A DNA stretch of 64,000 nt from Shimia sp. R10_1 (lineage in GTDB: Bacteria; Pseudomonadota; Alphaproteobacteria; Rhodobacterales; Rhodobacteraceae): contig NZ_JAGHQX010000004.1 in the NCBI RefSeq assembly GCF_017744095.1, forward strand, positions 186,001-250,000, read 5' to 3'. The notes beneath the pieces are model-generated. The model saw only the letters and a list, made by a program, of their open reading frames with translations. It was not told the origin of the DNA and made no database searches. Position numbers and translations under genes: made by a program. Below are positions 15,082-27,933 of the stretch, piece after piece; the stretch's first letter is position 1; each line of letters opens with the position of its first letter.

Positions 15082-16806
15082 GTGCAAGTGAGCCCATTGA
15101 CCACCGCTACCAAGACCAATCGCGCGGCCCAAACAAAGCAACCAGAGAGCGCTTTCGCACGCCGCGTTGAGGTTGTGCGTTTTCTGCTGGATGCGGGCGC
15201 GGGTATGCGCGACCCTATTGTGTTTCTCACGCTCGTCTCCGGGCTCAGCCGTGCAGGTATGATATTTGCCATCAATGAGACGGCGCAGCGCTATGATGAA
15301 GGGATGGGATGGCCCGTCGCTCTGCTCCTGCTTTGCGCCACAGCGATGGTGGTGTCCGGCTACTTTCAAAAGGTGCGCGCCTTTACTTTGATCACGCGTA
15401 TCGAAGCGCAGATGCGCAATCGGTTGTCTGAGCTGCTGCTTCGGGCAAACATCGATTTCCTGATCTCCCGGCGGCATGGCAAAGTGTATGGCGCGATGAC
15501 CGCTGAGGTGAACCAACTGGCGCAGGCGGTGATCCATTTGGTCGAGGCCATTGGTGCTGCGCTCGTGCTGATGTGCGCTATTCCTTATCTGTTCTATGTG
15601 AGCTGGATCGCAGGTGTGGCGGCAGTGGCTGCCATCGCATTTGGCGGCATCGGCTTTGCCATGATGGATGGCCCTGCGCGACGCTGGGCGACCAAAGCCT
15701 CTGACGCTTTTGCGGCCTATTGTGACCGTGTCACAGACATGTTGAGCGGTTGGAAAGAGTTGCGTCTGCGCGCAAGTCGGCGTGATGCGCTTGAGGCTGA
15801 AACAAAGGCAGTGATTGCCGCACAAGTGGCCAACAAGATGCGGTCTGAGCGGTTGTTTGCAGCAAGCACGGGCGGTGGGCAGTTGGCGGTTGCGCTGCTG
15901 ATGTGTTTTGTCGTGATTGTGTTGCCCGCTTTGAGTGGTGGCAATGCAATTGTGATGTTTCAGGTGCTGACCATCATCTTCCTTGTAAATGGGCCTACCG
16001 AGCTGGTGTTTAACACACTGCCGGTTTTGAGCCGTGCGGAAGCAAGCTATTTCAAAATCAAGGGCGTTGAGACAGAGCTGGCGGCCGCACAGAGCCATGC
16101 GCTGAGCGTTGCGTCACAGCCGTTGGAACGCTTTACAGGCATCGCTTTGCGAGGGGTCGAGGCGCGTGTGGGTGATACAGGGCGCGCAGATGTCGCGCCG
16201 TTTCACCTTGGGCCAGTCGATCTGGCTTTTCAGCCGGGCGAGACGGTTTTTATCTGCGGTGGGAATGGCTCTGGCAAGACCACATTGCTCTCTCTGATCA
16301 CAGGTATGCGCCACCCCGAAGTGGGCGAGATCCTTTTGAATGACATGCCATTGACGGATGAGACGACCGCCACGTATCGCGAGTTGTTTTCGGCGGTTTT
16401 TGCGCAGTTTCATTTGTTTGATCACGCTTATGGGATGCCAGAGGCTGAGCTAAGAGAGCTGGAGGCGCGCATTTCCCAGCTTGGGCTGGCAGAACGGGTC
16501 TCGCTGCTTGGCGATAAATTCTCCACCACATCGCTGTCTGCGGGACAAAGCCGCCGCCTTGCTCTGGCAGTGGCGCTGGCGGAGCAGAGGCCGATTATTG
16601 TGCTTGACGAGTTTGCGGCGGACCAGGACCCGGCAAATCGCGCGTTCTTTTATGATGTTCTGATGCCGGAATTGTCTGCTTCTGGCCGACTGGTTCTGGC
16701 GGTGACACATGATGATCACCAATTTGGGAAATGTGATCGCTTGATCAAAATGGAAGCGGGGCGCATCGTTTCAGACGAACGCATGCGTGCGCGCAAAGAG
16801 GCTTGA
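15082..16806 (+). CDS. SyrD/PvdE-type ABC exporter (TM domain fused to ATPase)
   Basis: About 574 residues. The N-terminal half has roughly six membrane helices (from residue 45 to 310). The C-terminal ATPase has Walker A CGGNGSGKTT, signature LSAGQSRRL and Walker B PIIVLDEFAADQDP. The unusual AGQSRR signature and EFAADQDP are those of the cyclic-peptide/siderophore exporter family (PvdE, SyrD). It is a half-transporter and should dimerise. No peptide synthetase is nearby, so the substrate is open; adjacency to a lipid pathway makes a lipid conceivable. The start is uncertain: GTG 15082 or GTG 15088, neither with a good ribosome site. Confidence 0.85.
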   Translation: MQVSPLTTATKTNRAAQTKQPESAFARRVEVVRFLLDAGAGMRDPIVFLTLVSGLSRAGMIFAINETAQRYDEGMGWPVALLLLCATAMVVSGYFQKVRAFTLITRIEAQMRNRLSELLLRANIDFLISRRHGKVYGAMTAEVNQLAQAVIHLVEAIGAALVLMCAIPYLFYVSWIAGVAAVAAIAFGGIGFAMMDGPARRWATKASDAFAAYCDRVTDMLSGWKELRLRASRRDALEAETKAVIAAQVANKMRSERLFAASTGGGQLAVALLMCFVVIVLPALSGGNAIVMFQVLTIIFLVNGPTELVFNTLPVLSRAEASYFKIKGVETELAAAQSHALSVASQPLERFTGIALRGVEARVGDTGRADVAPFHLGPVDLAFQPGETVFICGGNGSGKTTLLSLITGMRHPEVGEILLNDMPLTDETTATYRELFSAVFAQFHLFDHAYGMPEAELRELEARISQLGLAERVSLLGDKFSTTSLSAGQSRRLALAVALAEQRPIIVLDEFAADQDPANRAFFYDVLMPELSASGRLVLAVTHDDHQFGKCDRLIKMEAGRIVSDERMRARKEA

Positions 16807-16811
16807 GGCAT

Positions 16812-17573
16812 ATGAAGAATACGCAATGGACACCGTCTCGCGGTACGGGTTTGGCGATGTTGATTTCGTTGATTTGTACGGGGTTTGTGACCCTTGTGGT
16901 GAATGCGCAAATCTATCCTGCACGCTGGCAGTTCGCGGCGTTCTATCCTGATAAAACGTCAGAAAGACCCTACACCATCAGTGAGTCGATCGGTGATCCA
17001 CGCATTGGCGAGCCCTTTGCCGACTGGATGCTTTTGTGTGCGCCGATCTTGTTTGTCGGAGTTGTGTTGCTGTGTCTGCCGGCGTTGCGCGCTTTGCAAA
17101 CAAGTGGAGCCGACGCCAAAGCGGTGCGCCGGATTACTTTGCTGACTTGGGGGCTGTTGTTGCTGCAGGCGATGGCTTGTGTCGGATTGGTAATCCTGAG
17201 CCAATATCGCTTTCCACATTTTCGCGATGAGCATATGCTTGGCAGCTATTTGTTTTTCTTCAGCCAAGCACTTGTTGTGGTGGCGGGTGAATTCCTGTCA
17301 CGCAGCTATGCGCGGCTTGGTGCAGAGGGGCGTGTTCTGACACCCCGTTATGCGCTTTGGCGTCGGGCTTATGTTTGGGTGCCGATTGCGCTGGGGGTGA
17401 GCTATCTGGTGTTCTTCCTTGGCAAAGGGCATGCGCCGGAAGGCCTGCGCTATGAGGTGTATTTCGTCTACACAGGCCTTGAGCTGCTGCTGCTGTCTTC
17501 GTTTTTGTTCTACGTCATGACCTTTGCGCCGGACATGTGGCGCACGTGGCGGGTGAGCCGCGCTGCGCGTTAA
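16812..17573 (+). CDS. Six-helix membrane protein of unknown function
   Basis: 253 residues from ATG 16812, 5 bp after the exporter stop with GAGG upstream. Six hydrophobic segments lie near 11-30, 70-92, 108-132, 145-168, 190-208 and 218-240. After TM1 comes a soluble loop with YTISESIGDP. The loop plus six-helix layout faintly recalls FRAG1/DRAM/SFK1-type proteins, some of which act around phosphoinositides and sphingolipids in eukaryotes, but the likeness is weak and I would not annotate it as such. It is probably co-transcribed with the exporter. Its stop overlaps that of the convergent phosphatidyltransferase gene. Confidence 0.75.
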   Translation: MKNTQWTPSRGTGLAMLISLICTGFVTLVVNAQIYPARWQFAAFYPDKTSERPYTISESIGDPRIGEPFADWMLLCAPILFVGVVLLCLPALRALQTSGADAKAVRRITLLTWGLLLLQAMACVGLVILSQYRFPHFRDEHMLGSYLFFFSQALVVVAGEFLSRSYARLGAEGRVLTPRYALWRRAYVWVPIALGVSYLVFFLGKGHAPEGLRYEVYFVYTGLELLLLSSFLFYVMTFAPDMWRTWRVSRAAR

Positions 17574-18187
17574 TTCTCCGAAGACGTATCGGCGTCTTTG
17601 GCGCGCAGCATTTGAGTGGCACGTTGAGCGCGCTGCAGGGCGGTGAAATGCGACAGAAGCGCAAAGCCGCCCAAACCCCATGTGACAACCCAGCTGCCGA
17701 GAGCGCCTGCGAGCAGGAGCATGGCGCAGAGGTAAATTACCCGCTCCATGCGCTCAAAAAAGTCGGGCCAATCTGTGTTGGACACAGGCATTTCGATGGC
17801 GGTGCGCGCCTTTGCGTAAGATGTGATGACAGAGCCTGAGAAACAGGCAAGCGCCAGCGGCCAAGCATCGTGCATATGGGCTAGCGTGGCAAGCACCACC
17901 AGCTCTTGGTAGCGGTCGACCATGGCATCAAAATAGCCGCCTGCTTTGGTGGACATGCCGCGCCGCCGCGCCACTGCGCCATCCAATGCGTCAAAGACGA
18001 AGGCGAGGATCAGCGTCAGGCCATAAGCCACGGGCGACCCATGCCAGAGGTAGGCAAGCGACACCGCAATCACGAGCAAAAGGCCGATAAACGTCACCTG
18101 ATTTGGGGTCAGCTTGGCTTTCACCAGAGGGGTGGCCATGGCCTCCCACAGAGGGTCAATTGTCGATTTCATGAGCCCGTCGATCAT
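17570..18187 (-). CDS. CDP-alcohol phosphatidyltransferase
   Basis: 205 residues with several membrane helices. The complete family motif D-x2-D-G-x2-A-R-x8-G-x3-D-x3-D is present: D66, D69-G70, A73-R74, G83, D87, D91. These enzymes displace CMP from a CDP-activated lipid with an alcohol. Because myo-inositol-3-phosphate synthase is encoded in the same operon, the likely product is a phosphatidylinositol(-phosphate) or an inositol-phosphoceramide analogue. PgsA/PssA-type activity cannot be excluded. The ATG at 18187 has AGGA six bases upstream. This is the last gene of the ten-gene minus-strand cluster, 10 bp after the FGGY kinase. Confidence 0.9.
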   Translation of the reverse strand: MIDGLMKSTIDPLWEAMATPLVKAKLTPNQVTFIGLLLVIAVSLAYLWHGSPVAYGLTLILAFVFDALDGAVARRRGMSTKAGGYFDAMVDRYQELVVLATLAHMHDAWPLALACFSGSVITSYAKARTAIEMPVSNTDWPDFFERMERVIYLCAMLLLAGALGSWVVTWGLGGFALLSHFTALQRAQRATQMLRAKDADTSSEN

Positions 18188-18197
18188 GGTGTGTCCT

Positions 18198-19718
18198 TTA
18201 AGTGTAGCTGCGGATCAGGCGGCGGCGGATTTTATTGAGTTTGTCAGCGCGAGCGGCCAGTGCATCGGCGCGATCTTTGTTCGGCGAATAGAAGGCAGAG
18301 CTCCGCAATTTCAGAGTGGCAGCAGCATCTGTGACAGACGGTGCCCAGCCCATCAGCGGTGCCGCCAGTGTTGCGGTGCCCAGCATCCCAGCATGGCGGG
18401 CGCTGCAAACGCGAATGTCCCGATTAAGAGCGTCTGCCAGAGTCTGTGCAAAGATTGGATTGGCAGCTGCACCGCCGACGATGGACAGGGCCCCGGAAGT
18501 CTGAACACCCTTTTCGCGCTCCACTTTGGACATGGCCCATCGCAGGTTCAATGCGACGCCTTCAACAGCGGCGCGGCGCATGGCGGCGCTGTCATGGTGC
18601 AGGCTGAGGCCATGGAACGTGCCGCGGAGGCTGTCATTGTCCACGGGGACACGCTCACCTGCGAGCCACGGCAGGAAGAATGGATCATCCGCCTGAGGTG
18701 TGCCAAGGTCGTCAAATCCGGTCTCGACAGCGCCACCGCCGGTGACGTTGCAAACCCAATCGAGGGCGGAGCCTGCGTTTTCCTGACTGGCGATCAGGAG
18801 CGGGCGAAAGTTCAGACCTGTGGTGACGGTGGCATAGGAATGGGGGACGCTCAGGCGGCGGTTGGGGAAGAACCCTGCGATCCATGCAGACGTGGCAATA
18901 GAGATGTGCAGCGCGCCATCTGCCACTTCACCAGACCCCAATGCAGAAGCCATCACGTCGGATGTGCCGCCCAGCACTTGCACCTCTGGTGGCAGACCCA
19001 GCTCTGCGGCGGCTTGCGGGGTGAGGGTGCCGACAACGGCGTCAGCCTGTGTGATCGGGGCGAGTTTGCTGCGGTCAATACCGGTGAGCGTGCACAGCGT
19101 ATCGGACCAGCCTTCACGGCCTTGTCGCGTGTCCATCACCCAGCTTAGGTTGGCGCTTTCCGGGCTGGTGGTGATCTCGCCAGTGGCGCGGTGAATGAGC
19201 CAGTCTTTCACATCCATCATCCAGCGGGTGCGGGCGTAGATCTCTGGCTCTTGCTGCATGATCCAGAGCATTTTGGCGGTTGGATCCATGCCGTTTTTTG
19301 CCGGAGCGCCATTGGCGATGCGTAACCATTTGGCCAGACGCGGAATGTTGTAGCCGAGCACCTCAGGGAAGCCGCCGATCAGCTTTTGCCCCAAGGGTGC
19401 TGCGCGTTTGTCGAGCCATGTCAGGCAGGGGCGCAAGGGAGTGCCCGCCTCGTCACAGCAAATCAGCCCGAGGAGTTGTGAGGAAAATACCAGTGCGGAG
19501 GCGCGTTTGGAGAGGTCGGGGACGTCACGGCGGAGTGCCGCCAGTGCGTGTGCCAGAGCGCCCCACCAGTCTTCAGGGGTCTGTTCGGCCACACCGCCGG
19601 GCGCCAAAGAGAGCGGATAGGTCTCGGTCACACGTGCCAAAATGGTGAGGGAGCTGTCGACAACACCAACCTTTACGCCGGAGGTGCCAAAATCCGCTGA
19701 AATGACCAGATCGCCCAT
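18198..19718 (-). CDS. FGGY-family carbohydrate kinase
   Basis: 506 residues from ATG 19718 (a longer frame to 19904 exists but lacks family sequence). The N-terminal ATP-binding phosphate-1 motif is ISADFGTSGVKVGV. The middle has WLDKRA and DWLIHRATG, and the C-terminal nucleotide region is IVGGAAANPIFAQTLADAL. The size and these motifs fit xylulokinase-like FGGY kinases, which phosphorylate sugars or polyols. In this operon a polyol such as inositol, glycerol-like or pentulose substrates are conceivable. The 106-bp gap upstream is the largest in the cluster, so a secondary promoter is possible. The exact substrate cannot be read from the sequence. Confidence 0.85.
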   Translation of the reverse strand: MGDLVISADFGTSGVKVGVVDSSLTILARVTETYPLSLAPGGVAEQTPEDWWGALAHALAALRRDVPDLSKRASALVFSSQLLGLICCDEAGTPLRPCLTWLDKRAAPLGQKLIGGFPEVLGYNIPRLAKWLRIANGAPAKNGMDPTAKMLWIMQQEPEIYARTRWMMDVKDWLIHRATGEITTSPESANLSWVMDTRQGREGWSDTLCTLTGIDRSKLAPITQADAVVGTLTPQAAAELGLPPEVQVLGGTSDVMASALGSGEVADGALHISIATSAWIAGFFPNRRLSVPHSYATVTTGLNFRPLLIASQENAGSALDWVCNVTGGGAVETGFDDLGTPQADDPFFLPWLAGERVPVDNDSLRGTFHGLSLHHDSAAMRRAAVEGVALNLRWAMSKVEREKGVQTSGALSIVGGAAANPIFAQTLADALNRDIRVCSARHAGMLGTATLAAPLMGWAPSVTDAAATLKLRSSAFYSPNKDRADALAARADKLNKIRRRLIRSYT

Positions 19719-19824
19719 GGGTGTTTTCAAATGCCTCAGAGTCTTTGTTTTTGGTAATACCGCAGGCCATAGGGGCCTGTTTGGGTCTCTCATGCCATGA
19801 GGCGCTTGGCAAGGTCGTGGTGGT

Positions 19825-20949
19825 TCAATGGTGCTTGAGCAGGGCCTCTTCAAAAAGTGTGAGGTACTCTTGCCCAACCGTCGCCACGTCAAAGCTGCGG
19901 GCATGGGTGTTTGCCCAATTGCTCAAGTCCGTACGGTGCGCGGTATCGGTTGCCAGCTGGTGTATCTTCTCAGCAAGTGCTTGCGCGTCACCGGGCGGGA
20001 CAAGCAGATCTGCGCCTCTGCCTGTCATGACCGTGCGAAACCCATCATTGTTTGCCGCCACCGGAAGTGCGCCAGCGGCCATGGCTTCGATCAGGACAAG
20101 TCCGAAGCTTTCACCATGCAAAGCAGGGGCCGCGAAAATATCGGAGCTGGCGATTAAGGCGCGTGCATCCGCGTTGTTGGGCGGAGGCTGGAATTGAATG
20201 TTGGTCAGTGCATGCTGCTTGGCGTAGGCGCGGAGTGTGTCCTCTTCCTCGCCGCTTCCCGCGATGATGAGCTCGGCATCGGGCAGTTTGTTTTGCAGAC
20301 TGCGCCATGCCTCCAGCAAAACGGCTACCCCTTTGCGCGCCTCAAGGCGACCCATGTAAGTGATGCGGAAGCTGTCAGAAGAAGGTGTTGCCTCTGCCGC
20401 TGCGCGCCAGGAAGAAAGGTCGATTGCCGGCGGCAGGATCAGCGGCAGCGGGCGCGCATTCTCAGCTTTCCACTGTTCGTAAGGCGCGTCAGATGGGACA
20501 ACGACGCGACTGATGCGCCGATTAAAGTAATGCCCAACGCGGCGCAGTGCCCAGGACATGGGGTCAAAGCTCTCGCTTTCCGGTAAGGTTGCGTGGAAGG
20601 TGGCGATCGCAGGCAGCTTCAAGGCGCGCCACATTTGCCACGGCAGGAGCGGGGTCCATGGGGTGTGCATATGTACGACGTCTGCGCCCCAGTTTTTCAA
20701 AGCAACCACCGCCTTAGCGCGCTGGGCACGGGAGGCGCGGCTGACCTCAAAGGCGGTGCCGTGGATCGCGAAGGGCCGCGCGGTGCCAACTGTCATGAGG
20801 CTCTCTTCGCGATGATCTGGATTGCCGGGCGGTGCGACGATGCGGACGTCATGACCCTGATCGCGCAGCCATGCCGAGAGGTCGCGCACGTGGGATTGCA
20901 CGCCGCCGGGGCGGTCCATCGCATAGGGGGTGAGCTGAACGATTTTCAT
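19825..20949 (-). CDS. GT4 glycosyltransferase resembling PimA
   Basis: 374 residues from ATG 20949 (AAAGG upstream). It is a GT-B enzyme of family GT4: the N-terminal PGGVQSH loop (14-20) is the same as in mycobacterial phosphatidylinositol mannosyltransferase PimA, and the donor-side motif GESFGLVLIEAMAAG carries the EX7E residues. PimA adds mannose from GDP-mannose to the inositol ring of PI on the inner face of the membrane. With MIPS and a CDP-alcohol transferase in the same operon, glycosylation of an inositol lipid is the best inference. The sugar is unknown. It overlaps the LptG-like gene by 4 bp. Confidence 0.85.
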   Translation of the reverse strand: MKIVQLTPYAMDRPGGVQSHVRDLSAWLRDQGHDVRIVAPPGNPDHREESLMTVGTARPFAIHGTAFEVSRASRAQRAKAVVALKNWGADVVHMHTPWTPLLPWQMWRALKLPAIATFHATLPESESFDPMSWALRRVGHYFNRRISRVVVPSDAPYEQWKAENARPLPLILPPAIDLSSWRAAAEATPSSDSFRITYMGRLEARKGVAVLLEAWRSLQNKLPDAELIIAGSGEEEDTLRAYAKQHALTNIQFQPPPNNADARALIASSDIFAAPALHGESFGLVLIEAMAAGALPVAANNDGFRTVMTGRGADLLVPPGDAQALAEKIHQLATDTAHRTDLSNWANTHARSFDVATVGQEYLTLFEEALLKHH

Positions 20950-22094
20950 GGTGTGACCTTTGGCAGGTGTTTGCGAGGCAGACGCGGCAGATACCCCGAA
21001 AGCCGCAGCTGTAGAAGGCAAGCGAGACCAAATGCAAACACTGCGGGAAGCGTGGCGGCCAACAGAGGTGGCAGGACACCATGGATTCCAAGTGCCCAGA
21101 ACACTTTGACGGAGACCACGGCGAGATAGCCAATGGCCGCGAGAGCCAGTAGCAAGAAGGGAGACAGGCGGCGGCCTACTGTGCCCTGGCTTGCCAGACT
21201 CACGCCGAGGAGGGCGAAGATGGCCGGCAGGAAAATCGCCACTTTGCGCACAGCAAGCGCGGTTGCCGCGTCCGAAGAAGCGGCATCATCTGGCGCTGTA
21301 GCAATGGCGCGGAGCGCGTGGTTCGGGAGGTAGTAGGCATCCACGCCGAACCAGCGCACGGTTTCGGGATCTAAGTTGAATGGCATATCGAGGCGCGGCT
21401 CTGCGCTTGGGGCGCTGGCGTTTGCAACGTCCCAGACTGTGACGTCTTCGAAGGTCCAGACACCCTCATCAAAGCTGGGATGCGCGGCGCGTGCATGTAG
21501 CACGTTTGTGAGTTTCGGCTCCGTCAGCCCGTCAAACAGCATCACATCATTCAGCTTTGGGTTTTCGCCTCTCGTGAGTGTTGCGCGTAGGGCGCGGGTG
21601 TCATCGATCACCCATTGCGTGCCCATGTCCGTTTCGTTGTACCGCTTGCCGTAGTCACCAAGATTGGCCGCGACTTGCCCTGCCACAGCTTCCGGGCGCA
21701 GCCAGTTTTCGCCCGCCATTTGTAAGCCGCCCAGTAGGAGCCCCGATATCAATAAGGCGGCGATACGGAAGCTGGGGCCAGCGCCAGCGGCGGCGAGGAT
21801 CACATCGTCCTGCCTCTGGTGACGCAGCAGCGTAACGACAAACCCTCCGGCAAGGCAGGCCATGGTGAGCAGACGCGTGACAATGTCCACGCTGCGATAC
21901 CCAATGTAGGGCAGTAGAACGGAGATCAGCGAAGCATCGGTGGCCTGTGCCTGCGCTTGAACGGAGCCCAGCCATTTGGCGAGATCGATGGCAAGCGCCA
22001 CAACAAGCAGGGTGAACATCATAAACCCAATGGCGGCGAGATCTCCGCGCACCATGGCACGTACCGCAAGGCCTGTGTGTCGCTGCGCAATCAT
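20946..22094 (-). CDS. LptG-like permease paralogue (LptF/LptG family)
   Basis: 382 residues: one or two N-terminal helices (about 17-45, 60-85), a third near 100, a periplasmic beta-jellyroll-like middle (130-280) and three C-terminal helices (about 300-370). This is the LptF/LptG (YjgP/YjgQ) layout. Canonical LptFG with LptB extract lipopolysaccharide from the inner membrane. Here the pair lies inside a lipid-synthesis operon with no lptA, lptB or lptC, so it is likely a specialised copy handling the lipid made by the neighbours, using a shared or distant ATPase. It overlaps both flanking genes by 4 bp. Confidence 0.8.
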   Translation of the reverse strand: MIAQRHTGLAVRAMVRGDLAAIGFMMFTLLVVALAIDLAKWLGSVQAQAQATDASLISVLLPYIGYRSVDIVTRLLTMACLAGGFVVTLLRHQRQDDVILAAAGAGPSFRIAALLISGLLLGGLQMAGENWLRPEAVAGQVAANLGDYGKRYNETDMGTQWVIDDTRALRATLTRGENPKLNDVMLFDGLTEPKLTNVLHARAAHPSFDEGVWTFEDVTVWDVANASAPSAEPRLDMPFNLDPETVRWFGVDAYYLPNHALRAIATAPDDAASSDAATALAVRKVAIFLPAIFALLGVSLASQGTVGRRLSPFLLLALAAIGYLAVVSVKVFWALGIHGVLPPLLAATLPAVFAFGLACLLQLRLSGYLPRLPRKHLPKVTP

Positions 22095-23218
22095 CGGCGC
22101 ACCTCTGGCTTCATCAGCGCCTCTCCGCGCCAGATCAGATAGGCGAGCGGCGGGCCAAGGTAGAGCCCTGCAGCTGCAGCGCAGATCAGAGCTGTGGGCA
22201 GGCTTGACGCGAGTCCGGAGAGGATCGCCCCACTGGCAACATCGCTGCTCATCATGATGAGCACGGCCAGTGGCAACGCCACAAAGCGTAACGGGCCGCC
22301 ACCGCCTGCGACGAGTGCTGCCAATGCCAAAAGACCAGCCATAGGCACCATTAGGGCGCGAGACAGAAGCCGGGTGATTTGCCCAGTTTCGACCTCAGAA
22401 AGGCTGAGGAGCTTTTCTGCGGCACCGCGCGTGGTGTCGGTTTGAGGCAGGGCGTCGGACATGGAAAAGGCAAAGTTGGCAGATTTTGTGGCAAAGCTGT
22501 TCAGTGGTCTGATCGCGGTGGCTGTAGTCGGATAAGGACCTTCAAGGACATTGAGCGCTTGCAGTTCGATCGTATGCGTGTCGGACGGGGCTGTGTTGGT
22601 GACGTACCAGTTTTCAGAGTTTGCGGTGCGCCATCCCCCTTTGATGTCGGGCTGAAACACAAAGAGGTGTCCACGTTGGTCTGTGAGCGCTTCTGAGGGT
22701 GTTGCGATGAAGGTGGTGTCGCCGAGGGTTTGAAGGGTGGTCTCGCGCCCGCCTTCCTGAATGCGGGTGAGAACGTAGTCCTTTTGCAGAGCGATAAGCG
22801 CAAGGCGTTCTCCAAACTTGGCGCTGGGCAAAATCAGGCCAGCATTGGCAAAGCTGAGCGCACCACCAATGAGGCCGAAGGTCAGGACAAAGCTGACGAC
22901 CCGGCCCCAATGCACGCCTGCTGTGGCGAGGATCATCAGCTCGCCACGATTGCGGGCGTCCTGCGTGGCAAAATATGTGGCGATCAGGAGGCTCATTGCG
23001 AGGGCAAGATCCAGAATTTCCGGCACTTTGAAGCTCAAAAGATGTGCCACATCCAGAGGGCCACCGCCCAAGCGCAGAGCATGTTCGAGCAGTGTGGTGA
23101 AACTCTCGGCGAGGAAAATCGCCTCAATCACCAGCAACAGCAGCAGCAACCGCAAGAAAAGCGGTTTGCCCAGCACGCGCAACACAGGCAGGCGCAGGAA
23201 GGTTCCCAATCGGCTCAT
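22091..23218 (-). CDS. LptF-like permease paralogue (LptF/LptG family)
   Basis: 375 residues from ATG 23218. A TTG-started frame begins at 23287 but would overlap the upstream gene and adds no family sequence. N-terminal helix PLFLRLLLLLLVIEAIFLAES, then a segment with RNRGELMILATAGV, which matches the family's R-x-x-x-E-L-x-A-L-R/x-A-x-G coupling helix that contacts the LptB ATPase. A periplasmic domain and three C-terminal helices follow. Retention of this ATPase-contact helix implies that it works with an LptB-type ATPase encoded elsewhere. With the adjacent LptG-like gene it should form a heterodimeric lipid extractor. Confidence 0.8.
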   Translation of the reverse strand: MSRLGTFLRLPVLRVLGKPLFLRLLLLLLVIEAIFLAESFTTLLEHALRLGGGPLDVAHLLSFKVPEILDLALAMSLLIATYFATQDARNRGELMILATAGVHWGRVVSFVLTFGLIGGALSFANAGLILPSAKFGERLALIALQKDYVLTRIQEGGRETTLQTLGDTTFIATPSEALTDQRGHLFVFQPDIKGGWRTANSENWYVTNTAPSDTHTIELQALNVLEGPYPTTATAIRPLNSFATKSANFAFSMSDALPQTDTTRGAAEKLLSLSEVETGQITRLLSRALMVPMAGLLALAALVAGGGGPLRFVALPLAVLIMMSSDVASGAILSGLASSLPTALICAAAAGLYLGPPLAYLIWRGEALMKPEVRR

Positions 23219-23258
23219 ACGAGGAGTTTTGACATCTGAGGAGCCGTAGGCAAGGCGT

Positions 23259-24134
23259 TCACCACAATTGGGTGAGGAAATGGACAACCACGAGCCCGGC
23301 GCTGGCCGCGATCCAGCTGTCGAGACTGTCTAAGAGACCACCCTGCCGTGCGAGAACGCGAGGGTAATCTTTCACCCCAGCGATGCGTTTGTGGCGGGAG
23401 GCTGCGAGATCGCCCGCCACCGCAAGCGCGCCTACATAGAATGCCGTCGCTGTCGCAATGAGGGGTGAAAAATCCCAGACTGAGGATGCTGTTACCAGCG
23501 CGATGACAAGGGCGAGGGCGCCGCCTGCGAGGCCTTCGTAGGTTTTGTTCGGGCTGAGGACCGGGAAGGCCTTGTTTCGCCCGAGCAAGCTGCCGGTGAG
23601 CAGCGCGAAACTGTCAAAGATTTCAACCATTACGTAGGCCGCAAGCATAATAGCGGTCAGCGCTGGATGCGCCGCGCCATATGCGAGCAGACCCAATGGC
23701 AGGATTGGAAAGAGCAGTACGTCAGTGGCCGCGCCTTTCGCGGGTCGTGCCATCAATTGACGCGCAATAAGAAGAAACCAAAGACCTGCACAGGCAATGG
23801 CCACTGGGGCAAAGAGTGCACTGAGCACTGTCAGACCAGCGGCAGAGATCGCGGCCAGGATCACATGGGTTTGTTCTGACAAGCGTAAGGTTGCGACTTC
23901 GTAACCAATGCGGGCAGCGGCGAGTGCGAGACCTGCAATCAGGGCTTTTGGCCCCAAAAGAAAAAGCGCCAGATGGCAGAATAGGATCAGTGTGGCGCTG
24001 AATAACGTGGCCAACAAATCGAGGCTTTTGCGACGAATATTGGGGATCAGCGTCAGCAGCAGGAGGAGCAAAAAACCGGTCCCGATCAGGACCGCAGCAA
24101 CCATAGAAATGTCTTGTACGGTGGGCGTGGTCAT
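23259..24134 (-). CDS. Phosphatidate cytidylyltransferase (CdsA) family protein with altered signature
   Basis: 291 residues from ATG 24134, overlapping the SDR stop by 4 bp. About eight membrane helices. The CdsA hallmarks are recognisable: SPNKTYEG near 190 and the C-terminal SRHKRIAGVKDYPRVL plus QGGLLDSLD. Compared with the PROSITE CDS signature, K-R, K-D, G-G and both D residues are kept, but H-G-G is Q-G-G and D-R is D-S. It may therefore be a specialised CTP:lipid transferase making CDP-diacylglycerol or a CDP-activated sphingoid lipid for the phosphatidyltransferase in the same operon. That substrate assignment is inference. Confidence 0.82.
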   Translation of the reverse strand: MTTPTVQDISMVAAVLIGTGFLLLLLLTLIPNIRRKSLDLLATLFSATLILFCHLALFLLGPKALIAGLALAAARIGYEVATLRLSEQTHVILAAISAAGLTVLSALFAPVAIACAGLWFLLIARQLMARPAKGAATDVLLFPILPLGLLAYGAAHPALTAIMLAAYVMVEIFDSFALLTGSLLGRNKAFPVLSPNKTYEGLAGGALALVIALVTASSVWDFSPLIATATAFYVGALAVAGDLAASRHKRIAGVKDYPRVLARQGGLLDSLDSWIAASAGLVVVHFLTQLW

Positions 24135-24928
24135 TGCGTGTTGTGTTGCGAAATAATGCGTTTTTGGTGCCAGCGCAGAAGCGGTGCCAGCAGACTGCCA
24201 AGCCGGTTGAGCGCTGCCATCTGAAAGCCAGGCGCCACTGTGGGGCGACCTGCCCACATGCCCGCGATAAGGCGTGCGGCAATATCCTCGGGCTGCCAAA
24301 GGCCACCGCCCTCGGTGATTTTTTGTGTGGCGGCGGGTTTGGTGCGCTTTTCTTCCAGCAATTGGGGGGTGTCTGTGTCGGGGGGATATATCACCGTAGT
24401 GGTGATGTTGGCGTCCGCCAGTTCCAGGTGCAGGATTTCACCGAGCCCTCGCAAAGCGAATTTCGAGGGTGCATAGGACCCGTAGCCATAGATGCCAAAA
24501 AACGCAGCACCTGAAGAAATCAGGCCAATATGGCCTCCGCCTGCCTGAGCCATGGGTTTGCTGAGTATCTGGACAAAGGTGAGGGTGCCAAAATAGTTCA
24601 CCTCCATATGGCGCCGGTGCAGATCCGGGCTTTGCGCACGAAACAGGCCCGGTTGGGCAATGCCGGCGCTGGCTATGGCCATTTCTGGTGCGCCGAGTTT
24701 GGAAAGCGCGTTTTCAAGAGCTTCAGTCAGTGCAGGTTCATTGGCCACATCGACCGCATACGTCTCGATTTTGACCGCTGGTGCTTCTTGTAAGATTGCC
24801 TCGCGCGCGGCCAGCAGACGGCTGGCATCACGCGCGAAAAGAGCCAGATCATGCCCCTTTATCGCAAGTTGCATCGCAGCGGCAAACCCAATGCCGCTGG
24901 AGCCGCCTGTGACAAAGGCGGCGCGCAT
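24131..24928 (-). CDS. Short-chain dehydrogenase resembling 3-ketosphinganine reductase (TSC10/KDSR type)
   Basis: 265 residues. Classical SDR: cofactor loop TGGSSGIG (7-14), SAG near 87-89, catalytic Ser139, Tyr152 and Lys156 (YAPSK). The stretch YPPDTDTP at 181-188, followed by an E-x-K-R-T-K-P segment, is nearly identical to the hallmark of eukaryotic 3-ketodihydrosphingosine reductase (human KDSR, yeast Tsc10). A hydrophobic C-terminal segment could associate with the membrane. This activity would reduce the product of the oxoamine synthase encoded at the head of the operon. The likeness is from memory and not aligned, but the PPDTDTP motif is distinctive. Confidence 0.85.
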   Translation of the reverse strand: MRAAFVTGGSSGIGFAAAMQLAIKGHDLALFARDASRLLAAREAILQEAPAVKIETYAVDVANEPALTEALENALSKLGAPEMAIASAGIAQPGLFRAQSPDLHRRHMEVNYFGTLTFVQILSKPMAQAGGGHIGLISSGAAFFGIYGYGSYAPSKFALRGLGEILHLELADANITTTVIYPPDTDTPQLLEEKRTKPAATQKITEGGGLWQPEDIAARLIAGMWAGRPTVAPGFQMAALNRLGSLLAPLLRWHQKRIISQHNTQ

Positions 24929-26037
24929 CAGCTGCCCTCGTTGACAAACTTCAGCACAACATCATGTGCGTCGGTGTCTTCGATCTGCTCTGGGGGATGC
25001 TTAAACAGGAAGGCGCTTGCCTCGGTGATGGGGCCAGCAAGGCCGCGATCCCGCGCGATACGTGCCAGACGGATCGCCACCAGCGCTTCAGCCGCTGCAT
25101 TTGGGCTGTCTTCGACATCAAGGCGCACCTCGATGTTGGTGCGTGCGCCACCAAAGAGGCGGCCTTCAAGGCGGACGTAAGCAACCTTGCGGTCGTTCAG
25201 CCATGGCACGTAATCTGATGGGCCGATGCGGATGTCATTTTCATGCAGGCGCTCTTCCATCGCGGATTGCACCGCTTCGGTTTTGCTTTCCCGCTTGTTG
25301 GCCAGGCGGGCGTTTTCGCTCATGTTGAGGAAGTCTGTGTTGCCGCCCACGTTGAGCTGGTAGGTGCGGTCGATCTCAACGCCGCGCATTTCGGCGAGAT
25401 TGGCCAGCGTGCGGTGCAGGACGGTTGCGCCCATCTGTGCTTTGAAATCGTCGCCCAGAATTGGGATGCCTGCTGTGCGGAATTTGTCGGCCCATACAGG
25501 GTGGGACGCGATGAAAACAGGGATGCCATTTACCACGGCCACACCTGCTTCGAGCGCGCATTCGACGTAGAATTCAACCGCCTTTTGCGAGCCAACCGGC
25601 AGGAAGATGATCATGATCTCTGCTTCAAGCTCTTTCAGCTTGGACACGATCTCGTCTTTGCTCATCGCTTCCTCAGCAGACAGGCGGAAGCTGCGGTCTT
25701 CTGGGTTGGCAAGCATATGAGCGGCCACACCATCCAGATCAGGGCCGCGCAGCACTGGCGCGGTCTGGTCTGCGAGATCCGTGTGGAACTGTTCGGTGCA
25801 GTTTGGAGCGGCAAAGGCGGCTTCGGCAAGAGTTTTGCCAACTTTGCGGCTGTCCACATCAAAACCTGCGACGAGTTCGACATCTGCAGGCGTATAGCCT
25901 GCCAGATCTGGGAAGCTTACGCCCACGGCGTCGTCTCCCAGAGCGCGGCAATAGGAAACACCTTGAATCAGCGAGCTGGCGCAGTTGCCAACACCAACAA
26001 TCACGGTGCGGATCGGAGAGGAAGTTGCTTGTGTCAT
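24928..26037 (-). CDS. ino1: myo-Inositol-3-phosphate synthase
   Basis: 369 residues, the short prokaryotic form. NAD-binding VGVGNCASSL near 14-23, then GDDFKAQMGATVLHR, GGNTDFLNM and SDYVPWLNDRK, all diagnostic for MIPS. It converts glucose-6-phosphate to 1L-myo-inositol-1-phosphate (D-inositol-3-phosphate) with tightly bound NAD. In this operon it would feed inositol phosphate to the CDP-alcohol phosphatidyltransferase. Most roseobacters make no inositol lipids, so its presence beside lipid genes is the strongest pointer to an inositol headgroup. It overlaps the DUF4833-like gene and the SDR gene at both ends. Confidence 0.93.
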   Translation of the reverse strand: MTQATSSPIRTVIVGVGNCASSLIQGVSYCRALGDDAVGVSFPDLAGYTPADVELVAGFDVDSRKVGKTLAEAAFAAPNCTEQFHTDLADQTAPVLRGPDLDGVAAHMLANPEDRSFRLSAEEAMSKDEIVSKLKELEAEIMIIFLPVGSQKAVEFYVECALEAGVAVVNGIPVFIASHPVWADKFRTAGIPILGDDFKAQMGATVLHRTLANLAEMRGVEIDRTYQLNVGGNTDFLNMSENARLANKRESKTEAVQSAMEERLHENDIRIGPSDYVPWLNDRKVAYVRLEGRLFGGARTNIEVRLDVEDSPNAAAEALVAIRLARIARDRGLAGPITEASAFLFKHPPEQIEDTDAHDVVLKFVNEGS

Positions 26038-26702
26038 TCTTTGAAAGCTCCACCGGAAACGGCAATAGTATGGGTCACATAACGCCCTGTTTGGGGGTCG
26101 GTTGAATAAAGATGCAGCTGCGTGACTTTCGGCAAAAGTCCGCTTTCGTCGACGTCGAGGTATCCGTAGATCAACTGATATTCGCGTCCGTCCTGTTCGG
26201 TAAACAGCGCAGCTTTAAACGGGGCAAGCTGGCGCAGTTCGATCTTGTGCGATTTCAGTGCGTTAAACGCCAGATATTTGGACGTCGGAGTGTCGTGCGC
26301 ATGTGTACGCACACCAAATCCAAAGATGCGCTCGTACCAACGCAGTTGCATTGTTTGCCCTGCGTCAGCGTAGCGTCGCCAGAACACGGACACGGGTGCG
26401 CGCTGTGCCAGATTCCCGTCATCATCGTAAGTTGCCGTGTAGACGATTGTGTTGGCATTCATACTGCGCTGCAAAAAAAACAGCTGCCCCGGTTCGGCAG
26501 GGTGCGGGAAATCTGGATGCGCCAAAGGTAAGTCTTCGCTCACCTCAGAAGAAACAAGCGCTAGTTGCGGTTTGGCGTCTGCGTCCGTTGCTGTAAGTCC
26601 GAAGTTAAAGGCGAGAACCAAACACCAGAAAACCACAAACAGAGACCTGCTGCGATTACTCAGGGAATTGCCCTGAAAGCCCTTTTGAGCAGTCAGGAGC
26701 AT
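26034..26702 (-). CDS. Secreted DUF4833-like protein
   Basis: 222 residues, with a long basic n-region and a hydrophobic core (LFVVFWCLVLAFNFGL) ending at ADA, so it is exported. The mature part is beta-rich with NTIVYTATYD, FWRRYADAG and LIYGYLDVDESG. This pattern matches, as far as I recall, DUF4833 proteins, which occur near inositol-phosphate synthase genes in several phyla. No catalytic residues can be named. Placed between the oxoamine synthase and MIPS (4-bp gap and 4-bp overlap), it is probably a periplasmic component for handling or transporting the lipid. The family name is tentative. Confidence 0.65.
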   Translation of the reverse strand: MLLTAQKGFQGNSLSNRSRSLFVVFWCLVLAFNFGLTATDADAKPQLALVSSEVSEDLPLAHPDFPHPAEPGQLFFLQRSMNANTIVYTATYDDDGNLAQRAPVSVFWRRYADAGQTMQLRWYERIFGFGVRTHAHDTPTSKYLAFNALKSHKIELRQLAPFKAALFTEQDGREYQLIYGYLDVDESGLLPKVTQLHLYSTDPQTGRYVTHTIAVSGGAFKE

Positions 26703-26706
26703 TGGC

Positions 26707-27933
26707 TTATTCCGCGCTCATACGCTGCCGAAGGGCCGCAGCCGCTTCAGATGCCTTGGCGACTGCGTCAATCACCCGGTCCAGATCAGCTTCGCTGTGG
26801 GCCGCAGAAATAAAGAAGCGGATACGCGGCATGTCTTTGGGCACACCCACATGCACGACTGGCGGTGCATATATGCCTTGCTGCATGAGCGCCTCTGCAA
26901 CAAAAACACATTCTTCTGGTGTTTCAAACAGGATGGGGACAACCGCTTCGCCAATGGCGGTGCCGGTGTCCAATCCCATTTCTGCAGCTTTGGTCAGGAA
27001 GTGGCGCGAATTGGCGCGCAGCTTGGCAACGCGGCTGGGTTCCTTTTTTAGGATATCCAACGCGGTGTGTGCGCTTGCAACTGTAGCGGGCGGCAATCCA
27101 ACGGAATACACAAAGCCAGGCAAACAAAAGCGCAACCATTCGATAACATCGGCGTTAGCGGCGATGAACCCGCCGGAAGACGCAAAACTTTTTGACAGTG
27201 TCCCGATGGCAATTTCTACTCGGTTTGGATCTTCGCCGAAGTGTTCGCAAAGACCGCGGCCTGTTTCGCCAAGCACGCCGTAGGAATGCGCTTCGTCCAG
27301 CAGAAGCCATGCGTCGTAGGAGTCTTTCAAATCCAGCAATCGCGGCAGATCTGTGATGTCACCATCCATGGAGAACAGACCGTCAGTGCAGATCAGCACG
27401 CGGCCATGCTCTGCGCGATGTTCGCGTAAAACACGCTCCAGATCGTCTAGGTCATTGTGCGCGTAGGTTTCGTATCGTGCTTTTGCTCCGCGCGCGCCCA
27501 TCACAATCGAGTTGTGGGCGAGTTCATCAACGATGACCAGATCGCGCGGCCCCAACAGCAGGCCAATCACCGATACATTGGTGAGGTAGCCGGAAATGAT
27601 CGAAAGCACCCCGCCGACGCCCAAAAACTCAGCCATGTCCCGCTCGAGGGCTCGGTGGGCAAGCCGTTCACCGCCTACCAGTCTCGAGGCTCCCACGCCC
27701 GTGCCTTGTGCATCGATTGCAGCTTTTGCGGCAGCCGTGGTTTCAGGATGATGCATCAGGCCGAGATAATCGTAGTGAGACAGCGATAGGTAGCCATTTG
27801 GCCATTGGTCAGACTTTGCTTCCAGCCCGTCGGTTGCAACAAAGTATGGATGCCCGTTTTCGATCAGTGCGCGGCCGCTTAGGCGAAAACGGCGTTCTGC
27901 AAAGGACAGGAAGCTAGAGTCTTCAGTTTTCAT
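26707..27933 (-). CDS. Alpha-oxoamine synthase resembling serine palmitoyltransferase
   Basis: 408 residues from ATG 27933 with GGAG upstream. A fold-type I PLP enzyme of the AOS family. DEAHSYG at 213-219 carries the Ser after His that marks serine palmitoyltransferases, whereas KBL, BioF and ALAS have different residues there. The PLP lysine is K248 in GTLSKSFASSGG. It should condense an amino acid with an acyl thioester to a 3-keto base, with 3-ketosphinganine the expected product. Cysteate (sulfonolipid route) is possible as the amino acid. No acyl carrier protein or N-acyltransferase is encoded alongside. It is the first gene of the operon. Confidence 0.85.
   Translation of the reverse strand: MKTEDSSFLSFAERRFRLSGRALIENGHPYFVATDGLEAKSDQWPNGYLSLSHYDYLGLMHHPETTAAAKAAIDAQGTGVGASRLVGGERLAHRALERDMAEFLGVGGVLSIISGYLTNVSVIGLLLGPRDLVIVDELAHNSIVMGARGAKARYETYAHNDLDDLERVLREHRAEHGRVLICTDGLFSMDGDITDLPRLLDLKDSYDAWLLLDEAHSYGVLGETGRGLCEHFGEDPNRVEIAIGTLSKSFASSGGFIAANADVIEWLRFCLPGFVYSVGLPPATVASAHTALDILKKEPSRVAKLRANSRHFLTKAAEMGLDTGTAIGEAVVPILFETPEECVFVAEALMQQGIYAPPVVHVGVPKDMPRIRFFISAAHSEADLDRVIDAVAKASEAAAALRQRMSAE

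Follow-up and report, generated by a model that had tools for sequence, protein, structure and literature searches.

An operon of Shimia that joins inositol-lipid genes to a sphingoid-type synthase and reductase and may make and export a glycosyl-phosphoinositol lipid

According to the accessible text of a survey that covered more than 1000 type-strain genomes, alphaproteobacterial sphingolipids appear restricted to Sphingomonadales (PMC7179689). Caulobacter is described as an exception, with the genes for LptF/G near spt, the gene for serine palmitoyltransferase (SPT); sphingolipid export to the outer membrane was proposed there, and the same source, as excerpted, states that how sphingolipids travel from the inner to the outer membrane is not known (PMC11324152). 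The annotated cluster of E. coli BL21 likewise has LptF/G near spt, and Bacteroides thetaiotaomicron is reported to make inositol sphingolipids (PMC9246714). Here we describe an operon of Shimia sp. R10_1 in which these known parts, LptF/G near spt and a bacterial inositol sphingolipid pathway, come together in a combination that is new. We lean slightly towards the view that the operon's product is a glycosyl-phosphoinositol lipid, built on a long-chain (sphingoid-type) base, which it also exports.

The window, by which we mean the whole stretch of 64,000 nucleotides analysed (contig NZ_JAGHQX010000004.1, positions 186,001 to 250,000), comes from a 4.37 Mb assembly of 39 contigs whose nearest named relatives are Shimia. 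Between 27933 and 17570 the minus strand has ten open frames, in the order set out in a preliminary description of this DNA, and all ten genes match Pfam families over the curated cut-offs. The genes had been called mostly overlapping, and five of the nine junctions do overlap, with spacings along the operon of +4, -4, -1, -4, +40, -4, -4, +106 and +10 bases. For the CdsA-like, LptF-like, glycosyltransferase (GT4) and FGGY genes the preferred starts are 24134, 23218, 20949 and 19718, the mechanically called open reading frames (ORFs) beginning further upstream. Measured against L034, the nearest locus (Shimia sp. R9_2), the ten genes have dN/dS values of 0.02-0.16 and are therefore under purifying selection. 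The earlier gene list, correct for these ten, overlooked a Frag1-family gene and an ABC exporter that converge on the CDP-alcohol gene from the plus strand, so that the unit is larger, with about 12 genes:

26707-27933, minus strand: alpha-oxoamine synthase (SPT-like), 408 aa; PF00155 146 bits, best solved relative Sphingobacterium SPT 3a2b
26034-26702, minus strand: DUF4833 protein, 222 aa; PF16117 78 bits, cut-off 23.1
24928-26037, minus strand: inositol-3-phosphate synthase (MIPS), 369 aa; PF01658, M. tuberculosis Ino1 1gr0
24131-24928, minus strand: short-chain reductase, KDSR/TSC10-like, 265 aa; TSC10 8jat, YPPDTDTP...RTKP stretch
23259-24134, minus strand: divergent CdsA-like cytidylyltransferase, 291 aa; PF01148 99.5 bits, T. 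maritima CdsA 4q2g E 9.5e-12
22091-23218, minus strand: LptF-like permease, 375 aa; PF03739 53 bits, TIGR04407 62 bits, below cut-off 230
20946-22094, minus strand: LptG-like permease, 382 aa; PF03739 91 bits, TIGR04408 86.5 bits, below cut-off 240
19825-20949, minus strand: GT4 glycosyltransferase, PimA-like, 374 aa; PimA 4n9w/2gej E 5.5e-47
18198-19718, minus strand: FGGY-family kinase, 506 aa; PF00370 and PF02782, TIGR01312 XylB 255 bits, below cut-off 380
17570-18187, minus strand: CDP-alcohol phosphotransferase (CDPA), resembling phosphatidylinositol phosphate (PIP) synthase, 205 aa; PF01066, M. tuberculosis PgsA1 6h53
16803-17573, plus strand: Frag1/DRAM/Sfk1-family membrane protein, 256 aa, convergent with the operon; PF10277 38.1 bits, cut-off 30.3
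15082-16806, plus strand: ABC exporter, SyrD/PvdE/MsbA-like, 574 aa; TIGR01194 305 bits, over cut-off 286

With Caulobacter crescentus and E. coli BL21 the locus shares an alpha-oxoamine synthase near second-copy LptF/LptG genes and a flippase candidate. It differs from both in having a KDSR/TSC10-like reductase where theirs is the epimerase-family CerR, inositol-type headgroup genes where theirs are of the phosphoglycerate type, and no LptC2. Reading the whole cluster as Caulobacter-like was excluded, as the operon lacks acpR, aasR, cerR and cerS; genome-wide, where only a yghO-type cerS was sought, there was no match. The likeness to BT_1522-1526 of Bacteroides consists of MIPS and a PIP-synthase-like CDP-alcohol enzyme. 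The window, in contrast, has neither an AUR1-like phosphatidylinositol-ceramide synthase nor a clustered PgpA-type phosphatase, and the Shimia operon adds CdsA, a PimA-like glycosyltransferase and LptF/G, with synthase and reductase in the same operon. The mycobacterial phosphatidylinositol mannoside (PIM) pathway provides the best solved relatives of three enzymes (Ino1, PgsA1 and PimA), with the acceptor-site residues of PgsA1 conserved; it differs from the Shimia operon, which has a linked sphingoid-type synthase and reductase, an extra CdsA and Gram-negative LptF/G export genes. Among solved structures the operon reductase is closest to eukaryotic TSC10/KDSR, with which it shares an RTKPA.T.KI stretch; it is itself a bacterial short-chain dehydrogenase/reductase (SDR) of 265 aa known here from sequence. 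In the open-licence literature, partly among the matches listed and with subscription papers and preprints outside its scope, we found no paper on this operon, on inositol sphingolipids of Rhodobacteraceae or on DUF4833.

The preliminary description proposed gene-order conservation as a check, and the first seven genes do keep their order among relatives. A pattern-based scan of genome contigs with the synthase as query, which reaches close relatives only, yielded 24 loci; 20 of these have SPT, DUF4833, MIPS, SDR, CdsA, LptF and LptG in this order on one strand, an arrangement that is therefore not due to chance. Nineteen pass an order test with gaps of up to 300 bases, and the twentieth (L037) has the same gene order with its LptF frame shortened by a run of 113 N. 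The GT4 gene comes next in 19 of the 24 loci, FGGY is present in 18 and CDPA in 16, several of the slices being too short at this end. Most carriers are Shimia, named strains among them, joined by Salinihabitans flavidus (L046) and Candidatus Rhodobacter lobularis (L050). The remaining four loci (L052-L055) belong to a Hyphomicrobiaceae metagenome-assembled genome, two alphaproteobacterial metagenome-assembled genomes and Rhizomicrobium electricum, with synthases at 51 to 55 percent; they have no MIPS, CdsA or CDPA in the locus, and L053-L055 retain the synthase, DUF4833, LptF and LptG, plus a different SDR and GT4s.

Across the family, the synthase is matched at E<=1e-90 in 15 of 248 genomes, eight at no less than 61 percent identity (one of them, G100, cut by a contig end) and seven at 41-47 percent. 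MIPS occurs in 10 of the 248, namely in all eight with a close synthase and in two of the 240 others (G095 and G246; Fisher p 1.4e-13), and synthase and MIPS are thus strongly associated. DUF4833 exceeds its cut-off in 2/385 class genomes and 3/398 phylum genomes, two samples that overlap, giving three distinct genomes (the window genome G000, G210 and G859), in every one of which it sits in this operon; a fourth match, in G264, is weak and below the cut-off. CDPA orthologues of at least 62 percent were present in 11 of 15 genomes checked, away from the synthase in three of them (G152, Salinihabitans and G126), and in the four Rhizomicrobium-type genomes the CDPA search was blank in three and weak in G981 (E 9e-6).

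The inositol half of the pathway is well supported by sequence comparison, much as first described. MIPS, named as the inositol-phosphate supply, has M. tuberculosis Ino1 (1gr0) as its best solved relative (E 3.3e-106). For the CDP-alcohol enzyme it is M. tuberculosis PgsA1 (6h53), by sequence and by profile, and the signature DxxDGxxAR(8)GxxxDxxxD, claimed to be complete, is invariant in 13 sequences. The inositol-phosphate pocket of PgsA1 is described, in the portions available of two structural papers, as containing R94, S132, K135, R137, R152, R155 and R195 (PMC4634129, PMC6506517). These residues correspond to R92, S123, K126, R128, R146, R149 and R186 in the window, so that all seven acceptor residues checked are conserved, and they are invariant in 13/13 sequences. 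The GT4 matches PimA (4n9w/2gej) at E 5.5e-47 and 163.6 bits across residues 1-367 (374 in all), and the second-best solved GT4 reaches 52.6 bits (E 3e-13); by its sequence the operon enzyme is PimA-like over the full length, and transfer of mannose from GDP-mannose to phosphatidylinositol is only predicted. NCBIfam equivalog cut-offs are unreached for all three enzymes, which are therefore relatives and not certified members: the sole MIPS model matched is mycothiol INO1, below cut-off, and the CDP-alcohol enzyme scores 86.9 bits against a cut-off of 170 for PIPSynth and 124.9 against 180 for archaetidylinositol-phosphate synthase. With Ino1, PgsA1 and PimA as best solved relatives, the three enzymes are nearest to the first three of the PIM route.

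The sphingoid half is probable. Its synthase is a sound alpha-oxoamine synthase, the residues of the pyridoxal phosphate site (H140, D213, H216 and K248) being invariant in 13/13 sequences. Among solved structures Sphingobacterium SPT 3a2b ranks first (227.5 bits with a single sequence, 303.5 with a profile) and E. coli Kbl is a close second (216.7 and 279.6 bits); the best NCBIfam model is bioF TIGR00858, below cut-off. Two trees, with 27 and 25 rows, place the 13 operon synthases in a clade of their own (99/99) and the canonical SPT rows (E. coli BL21, Sphingomonas and Sphingobacterium) in another (95/92). Sister to the operon clade (100/100) are six rows from the 41-47 percent group, which we call the polyketide synthase (PKS) type; four of them (L026, L027, L029 and L030) follow a PKS-like ORF of 2259-2482 aa, and L028 and L031 lie at contig ends. 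Grouping operon and SPT rows without the PKS-type rows was rejected (p-AU, approximately unbiased test, 2.4e-6), a result driven by the PKS-type rows and obtained for a group named after the first tree was seen. A clade of operon, PKS-type and SPT rows had support of 59/50 in the first tree, and in the second SPT and Kbl fell on the same side of a 100/100 branch. Of the preliminary claim of an SPT-like enzyme, the alpha-oxoamine synthase with its DEAH motif and PLP lysine stands; membership of the canonical clade does not. SPT-like clades are described as far wider than the known SPTs in the accessible part of one study (PMC11334938). We call the enzyme SPT-like because its partner reductase is KDSR-like; its SPT identity, and likewise its use of serine, would follow from this context.

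The reductase is by its sequence KDSR/TSC10-like, as first described, and is predicted to reduce 3-ketosphinganine. Its best solved relative is the 3-ketodihydrosphingosine reductase TSC10 (8jat, E 2.6e-22; runner-up 7.8e-17), and it carries the catalytic YxxxK as YAPSK. The stretch [YFH]P.DT.T...KP occurs in all 27 operon-type reductases of relatives, as YPPDTDTP in 18 of them, and in the reductase linked to the synthase of G095; it is found in 0/3 of the reductases examined near PKS-type synthases and in 0/3 of those of L053-L055. YPPDTDTP is, we presume, a mark of human KDSR, and TSC10 has a different stretch at this position.

A synthase-family search of the window genome (E<=0.001) gave Kbl, HemA and the operon enzyme as its only matches, with no canonical BioF. 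The possibility that the operon enzyme is an ordinary Kbl or HemA was excluded, as the Kbl and HemA of the genome are separate genes over their cut-offs. A BioF is unlikely, there being no biotin gene among the operon partners, though TIGR00858 is the best NCBIfam model.

The preliminary description was also right to name a CdsA relative and LptF- and LptG-like permeases. A second, higher-scoring CdsA lies elsewhere in the window genome, and the operon CdsA is therefore an extra, divergent copy. All eight family operon genomes and G859 have at least two CdsA-family genes, with three in G064 and G859, compared with a single gene in 11 of 12 controls and at least two in the other. Both permeases exceed the PF03739 cut-off, and the NCBIfam equivalog cut-offs are unreached. 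None of the ten operon genes is a dedicated LptB or LptC; an LptB-like ATPase was recognised by eye in L052 and L055. The DUF4833 protein has an AlphaFold model with a mean pLDDT of 87.8, a helix at 15-36 and then strands, and is probably secreted or membrane-anchored, with one N-terminal helix followed by an all-beta part. A fold search found no PDB match at E<=0.001, so that an LptC-like role is a guess. The FGGY kinase, with xylulose kinase 2itm as its best solved relative (E 1.5e-39), has no clear place in the pathway; we considered a role as a lipid kinase, for which we know of no precedent, as a candidate only.

PgpA is the family of the PIP phosphatase of Bacteroides, according to the text available (PMC9246714). 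One PgpA over cut-off was found in each of 21 genomes, G007 having one further match below cut-off. That of the window genome lies outside the 64-kb window, and the only one found in G859 lies within the lipid cluster, encoded on the strand opposite to it (L064:11756-12394).

Reading from sequence the family identities, the active sites of the synthase and the PIP-synthase-like enzyme, the nearest relatives of MIPS, reductase and GT4, the linkage and the co-occurrence, we propose a pathway for which we infer the serine substrate, the N-acylation, the kinase step, the joining of base and inositol in one molecule and the export route. The alpha-oxoamine synthase would form a 3-keto base by condensing an amino acid (probably serine) and an acyl thioester, and the KDSR/TSC10-like reductase would convert this to a 3-hydroxy base. 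A non-linked enzyme would then N-acylate this base, the FGGY kinase or an unlinked lipid kinase would phosphorylate its 1-hydroxyl, and the divergent CdsA would turn the product into a CDP-lipid. MIPS would supply inositol-3-phosphate, which the PIP-synthase-like enzyme would couple to the CDP-lipid; an unlinked phosphatase, perhaps PgpA, would take off the extra phosphate and the PimA-like GT4 would add a sugar. The lipid may then be flipped by the ABC exporter and extracted toward the outer membrane by LptF/G together with a housekeeping LptB and the DUF4833 protein. A more detailed version of this proposal we hold only tentatively. Here the product would be a bacterial glycosyl-inositol-phospho-sphingolipid analogous to the glycosyl inositol phosphoryl ceramides (GIPC) of plants and fungi, made with a mycobacterial-type PIP synthase and a PimA-like glycosyltransferase on a base from a new alpha-oxoamine synthase branch and a eukaryote-like ketosphinganine reductase, finished by the Frag1/PGAP2-family protein and carried by the dedicated LptF/G to the outer membrane, with CDP-activated 2-aminoethylphosphonate or inositol decoration in some relatives.

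The preliminary description placed all parts on one route. Inositol supply, headgroup transfer, glycosylation and the reductase fit it; that base and inositol end up in one molecule is less certain, two relatives having the inositol genes without synthase and reductase. We regard their union in one molecule as an even call and still as the single best reading. Several observations weigh against it. The synthase, judged from the trees, lies outside the canonical SPT clade, and it scores 289, 275 and 206 bits with three NCBIfam SPT models whose cut-offs are 640, 500 and 670. No lipid kinase of known type, inositol phosphorylceramide synthase or phosphatase is among the ten operon genes. A ceramide synthase, like a phosphatase, had been noted as missing from the window, and in the window genome the E. 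coli yghO query (a ceramide synthase, described in the available text as a CC_1154-type N-acyltransferase; PMC9386255) gave no match at E<=0.01 and a Rhizomicrobium GNAT query gave none either; both queries lack a positive control, and these negatives are therefore weak. In G152 the gene set is split over three places of one contig. G246 (L108) and G095 (L109) have DUF4833-MIPS-CdsA-LptF-LptG-GT4-FGGY-CDPA with Frag1 and ABC genes and without synthase or reductase, so that the sphingoid and inositol modules can separate. A different contig of G095 carries a synthase at 42 percent together with a KDSR-like reductase. In G246 no alpha-oxoamine synthase was found at E<=1e-10, HemA-class included, while the other four genomes in that search each had one match in the 30-34 percent class (among these only the HemA and Kbl of the window genome were identified); the assembly or the search may thus be incomplete for G246.

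This separability keeps alive a rival in which one exporter serves two lipids, a diacylglycerol-based PIM-like lipid made from CDP-diacylglycerol and a separate sphingoid lipid, with LptF/G shared. It fits the inositol genes, Frag1 and ABC of L108 and L109, the converse case of L053-L055, where synthase, DUF4833 and LptF/G persist without MIPS, CdsA or CDPA in the locus and the genomes lack a CDPA match, and the resemblance of the CDP-alcohol enzyme to PgsA1, whose donor is CDP-diacylglycerol. However, a diacylglycerol backbone should need only the other CdsA, yet 9/9 operon genomes tested have at least two CdsA-family genes; the extra divergent copy speaks for one molecule, because a diacylglycerol-based lipid would not need it. 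The association of synthase with MIPS and the synthase-reductase pair kept elsewhere in G095 also tell against two lipids, and on balance we find this account unlikely. Less probable again is a synthase that uses alanine or glycine and makes another 2-amino-3-keto lipid, as in 1-deoxy bases, which would lack the 1-hydroxyl needed by ceramide phosphates. The enzyme does form its own clade, sister to synthases several of which follow a type I PKS-like ORF, its best NCBIfam score is with bioF, and SPT and Kbl are close in the profile search (303.5 and 279.6 bits); but the linked reductase is KDSR/TSC10-like, and the adjoining phosphotransfer genes require a phosphorylatable lipid hydroxyl, if the base is the backbone. 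That the inositol branch ends in a soluble product, such as a di-inositol-phosphate osmolyte or a mycothiol-like thiol, seems very improbable. Some relatives have a nucleoside triphosphate (NTP) transferase and a second CDP-alcohol enzyme, one of two NTP transferases scanned best fits the inositol-1-phosphate cytidylyltransferase/DIPP synthase model, and mycothiol INO1 is the only MIPS model matched. Against this stand the full-length PimA likeness of the GT4 (163.6 bits; next solved GT4 52.6), the presence of LptF/G, CdsA and the synthase in the same operon, and the lack of an NTP transferase between LptG and GT4 in the window.

The two plus-strand neighbours are retained in relatives. Ten genomes had enough flank at the FGGY-CDPA end (G000, G210, G100, G204, G859, G246, G095, G152, G126 and G064); all have an ABC exporter homologue there, and nine have Frag1, G152 being the exception. 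PF10277 was matched at E<=0.01 by 10/11 Frag1 homologues, and a structure search with the Frag1 model gave no match at E<=0.001. The eukaryotic Frag1-family members PGAP2, CWH43 and Sfk1 act on glycosylphosphatidylinositol or phosphoinositide lipids, which makes the Frag1 neighbour suggestive. G126 has a phytanoyl-CoA dioxygenase (PhyH) gene, a possible lipid hydroxylase, between ABC exporter and Frag1 (L112:7500-8381). In the window a sulfatase-family gene (PF00884; 13236-14906, minus strand) adjoins the ABC exporter.

Relatives vary the gene set around this core. An NTP transferase lies between LptG and GT4 in six of the 24 scan loci, and also in L020, L021, L023, L024, L064 and L110; some relatives have a second CDP-alcohol enzyme there as well. 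In some, a fatty-acid desaturase or a Stealth-type phosphotransferase follows GT4 or adjoins FGGY. Salinihabitans has, immediately upstream of its synthase, a phosphoenolpyruvate (PEP) mutase fused to an NTP transferase (L046:5946-9834; TIGR02320 378 bits, cut-off 320), PhnW (TIGR03301 438 bits, cut-off 361) and, by eye, a phosphonopyruvate-decarboxylase-like gene. Homologues of all three are found in G859 (L064:17666-19950, L065:2-1561), where the decarboxylase-like gene is a thiamine pyrophosphate enzyme by Pfam, and G152 has a PhnW-like gene. Two distant lineages thus have aminoethylphosphonate genes immediately before the synthase, and this suggests a putative aminoethylphosphonate decoration in some carriers; aminoethylphosphonate sphingolipids occur in Bacteriovorax. 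Such a module was excluded for the window genome: the best match to the fused PEP mutase has 32 percent identity and, by eye, a KRCGH motif, which we take to mark isocitrate/methylisocitrate lyases, and no match exceeds 36 percent identity, that one over 61 residues only.

The more distant synthases have neighbourhoods of their own. Of the seven family genomes whose synthase matches at 41-47 percent, five have a PKS-like ORF (2259-2482 aa) next to it (L025, L026, L027, L029 and L030, in genomes G083, G036, G101, G168 and G061). The ORF of L027, the one scanned, encodes a complete reducing type I PKS (KS-AT-DH-ER-KR-ACP); SDR genes are found close by in L026, L027 and L030, and genes resembling those for capsule export were seen by eye. 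Perhaps these loci make a candidate PKS-derived sphingoid-like lipid that serves as a capsule anchor. L055 (1-13200) holds an LptB-like ATPase (by eye), LptF, LptG, DUF4833, two GT4s, an SDR, membrane proteins and the synthase, without inositol genes; a GNAT-family gene beside the synthase is a candidate N-acyltransferase. L052 (1-9900) has only part of this set. From their gene content, these Rhizomicrobium-type clusters look like a sibling lipid export system.

The description of a new Roseobacteraceae genus, in the text available, reports unidentified amino- and phospholipids (PMC10608839), so that lipids of the kind proposed here could have been overlooked. If our proposal is true, Roseobacteraceae, a marine group, would have in this inositol (glyco)sphingolipid a class of lipid new to them, bacteria would have one more independent route to lipids of the GIPC kind, and the operon would offer a genetically simple system for how LptF/G paralogues choose a lipid other than lipopolysaccharide.

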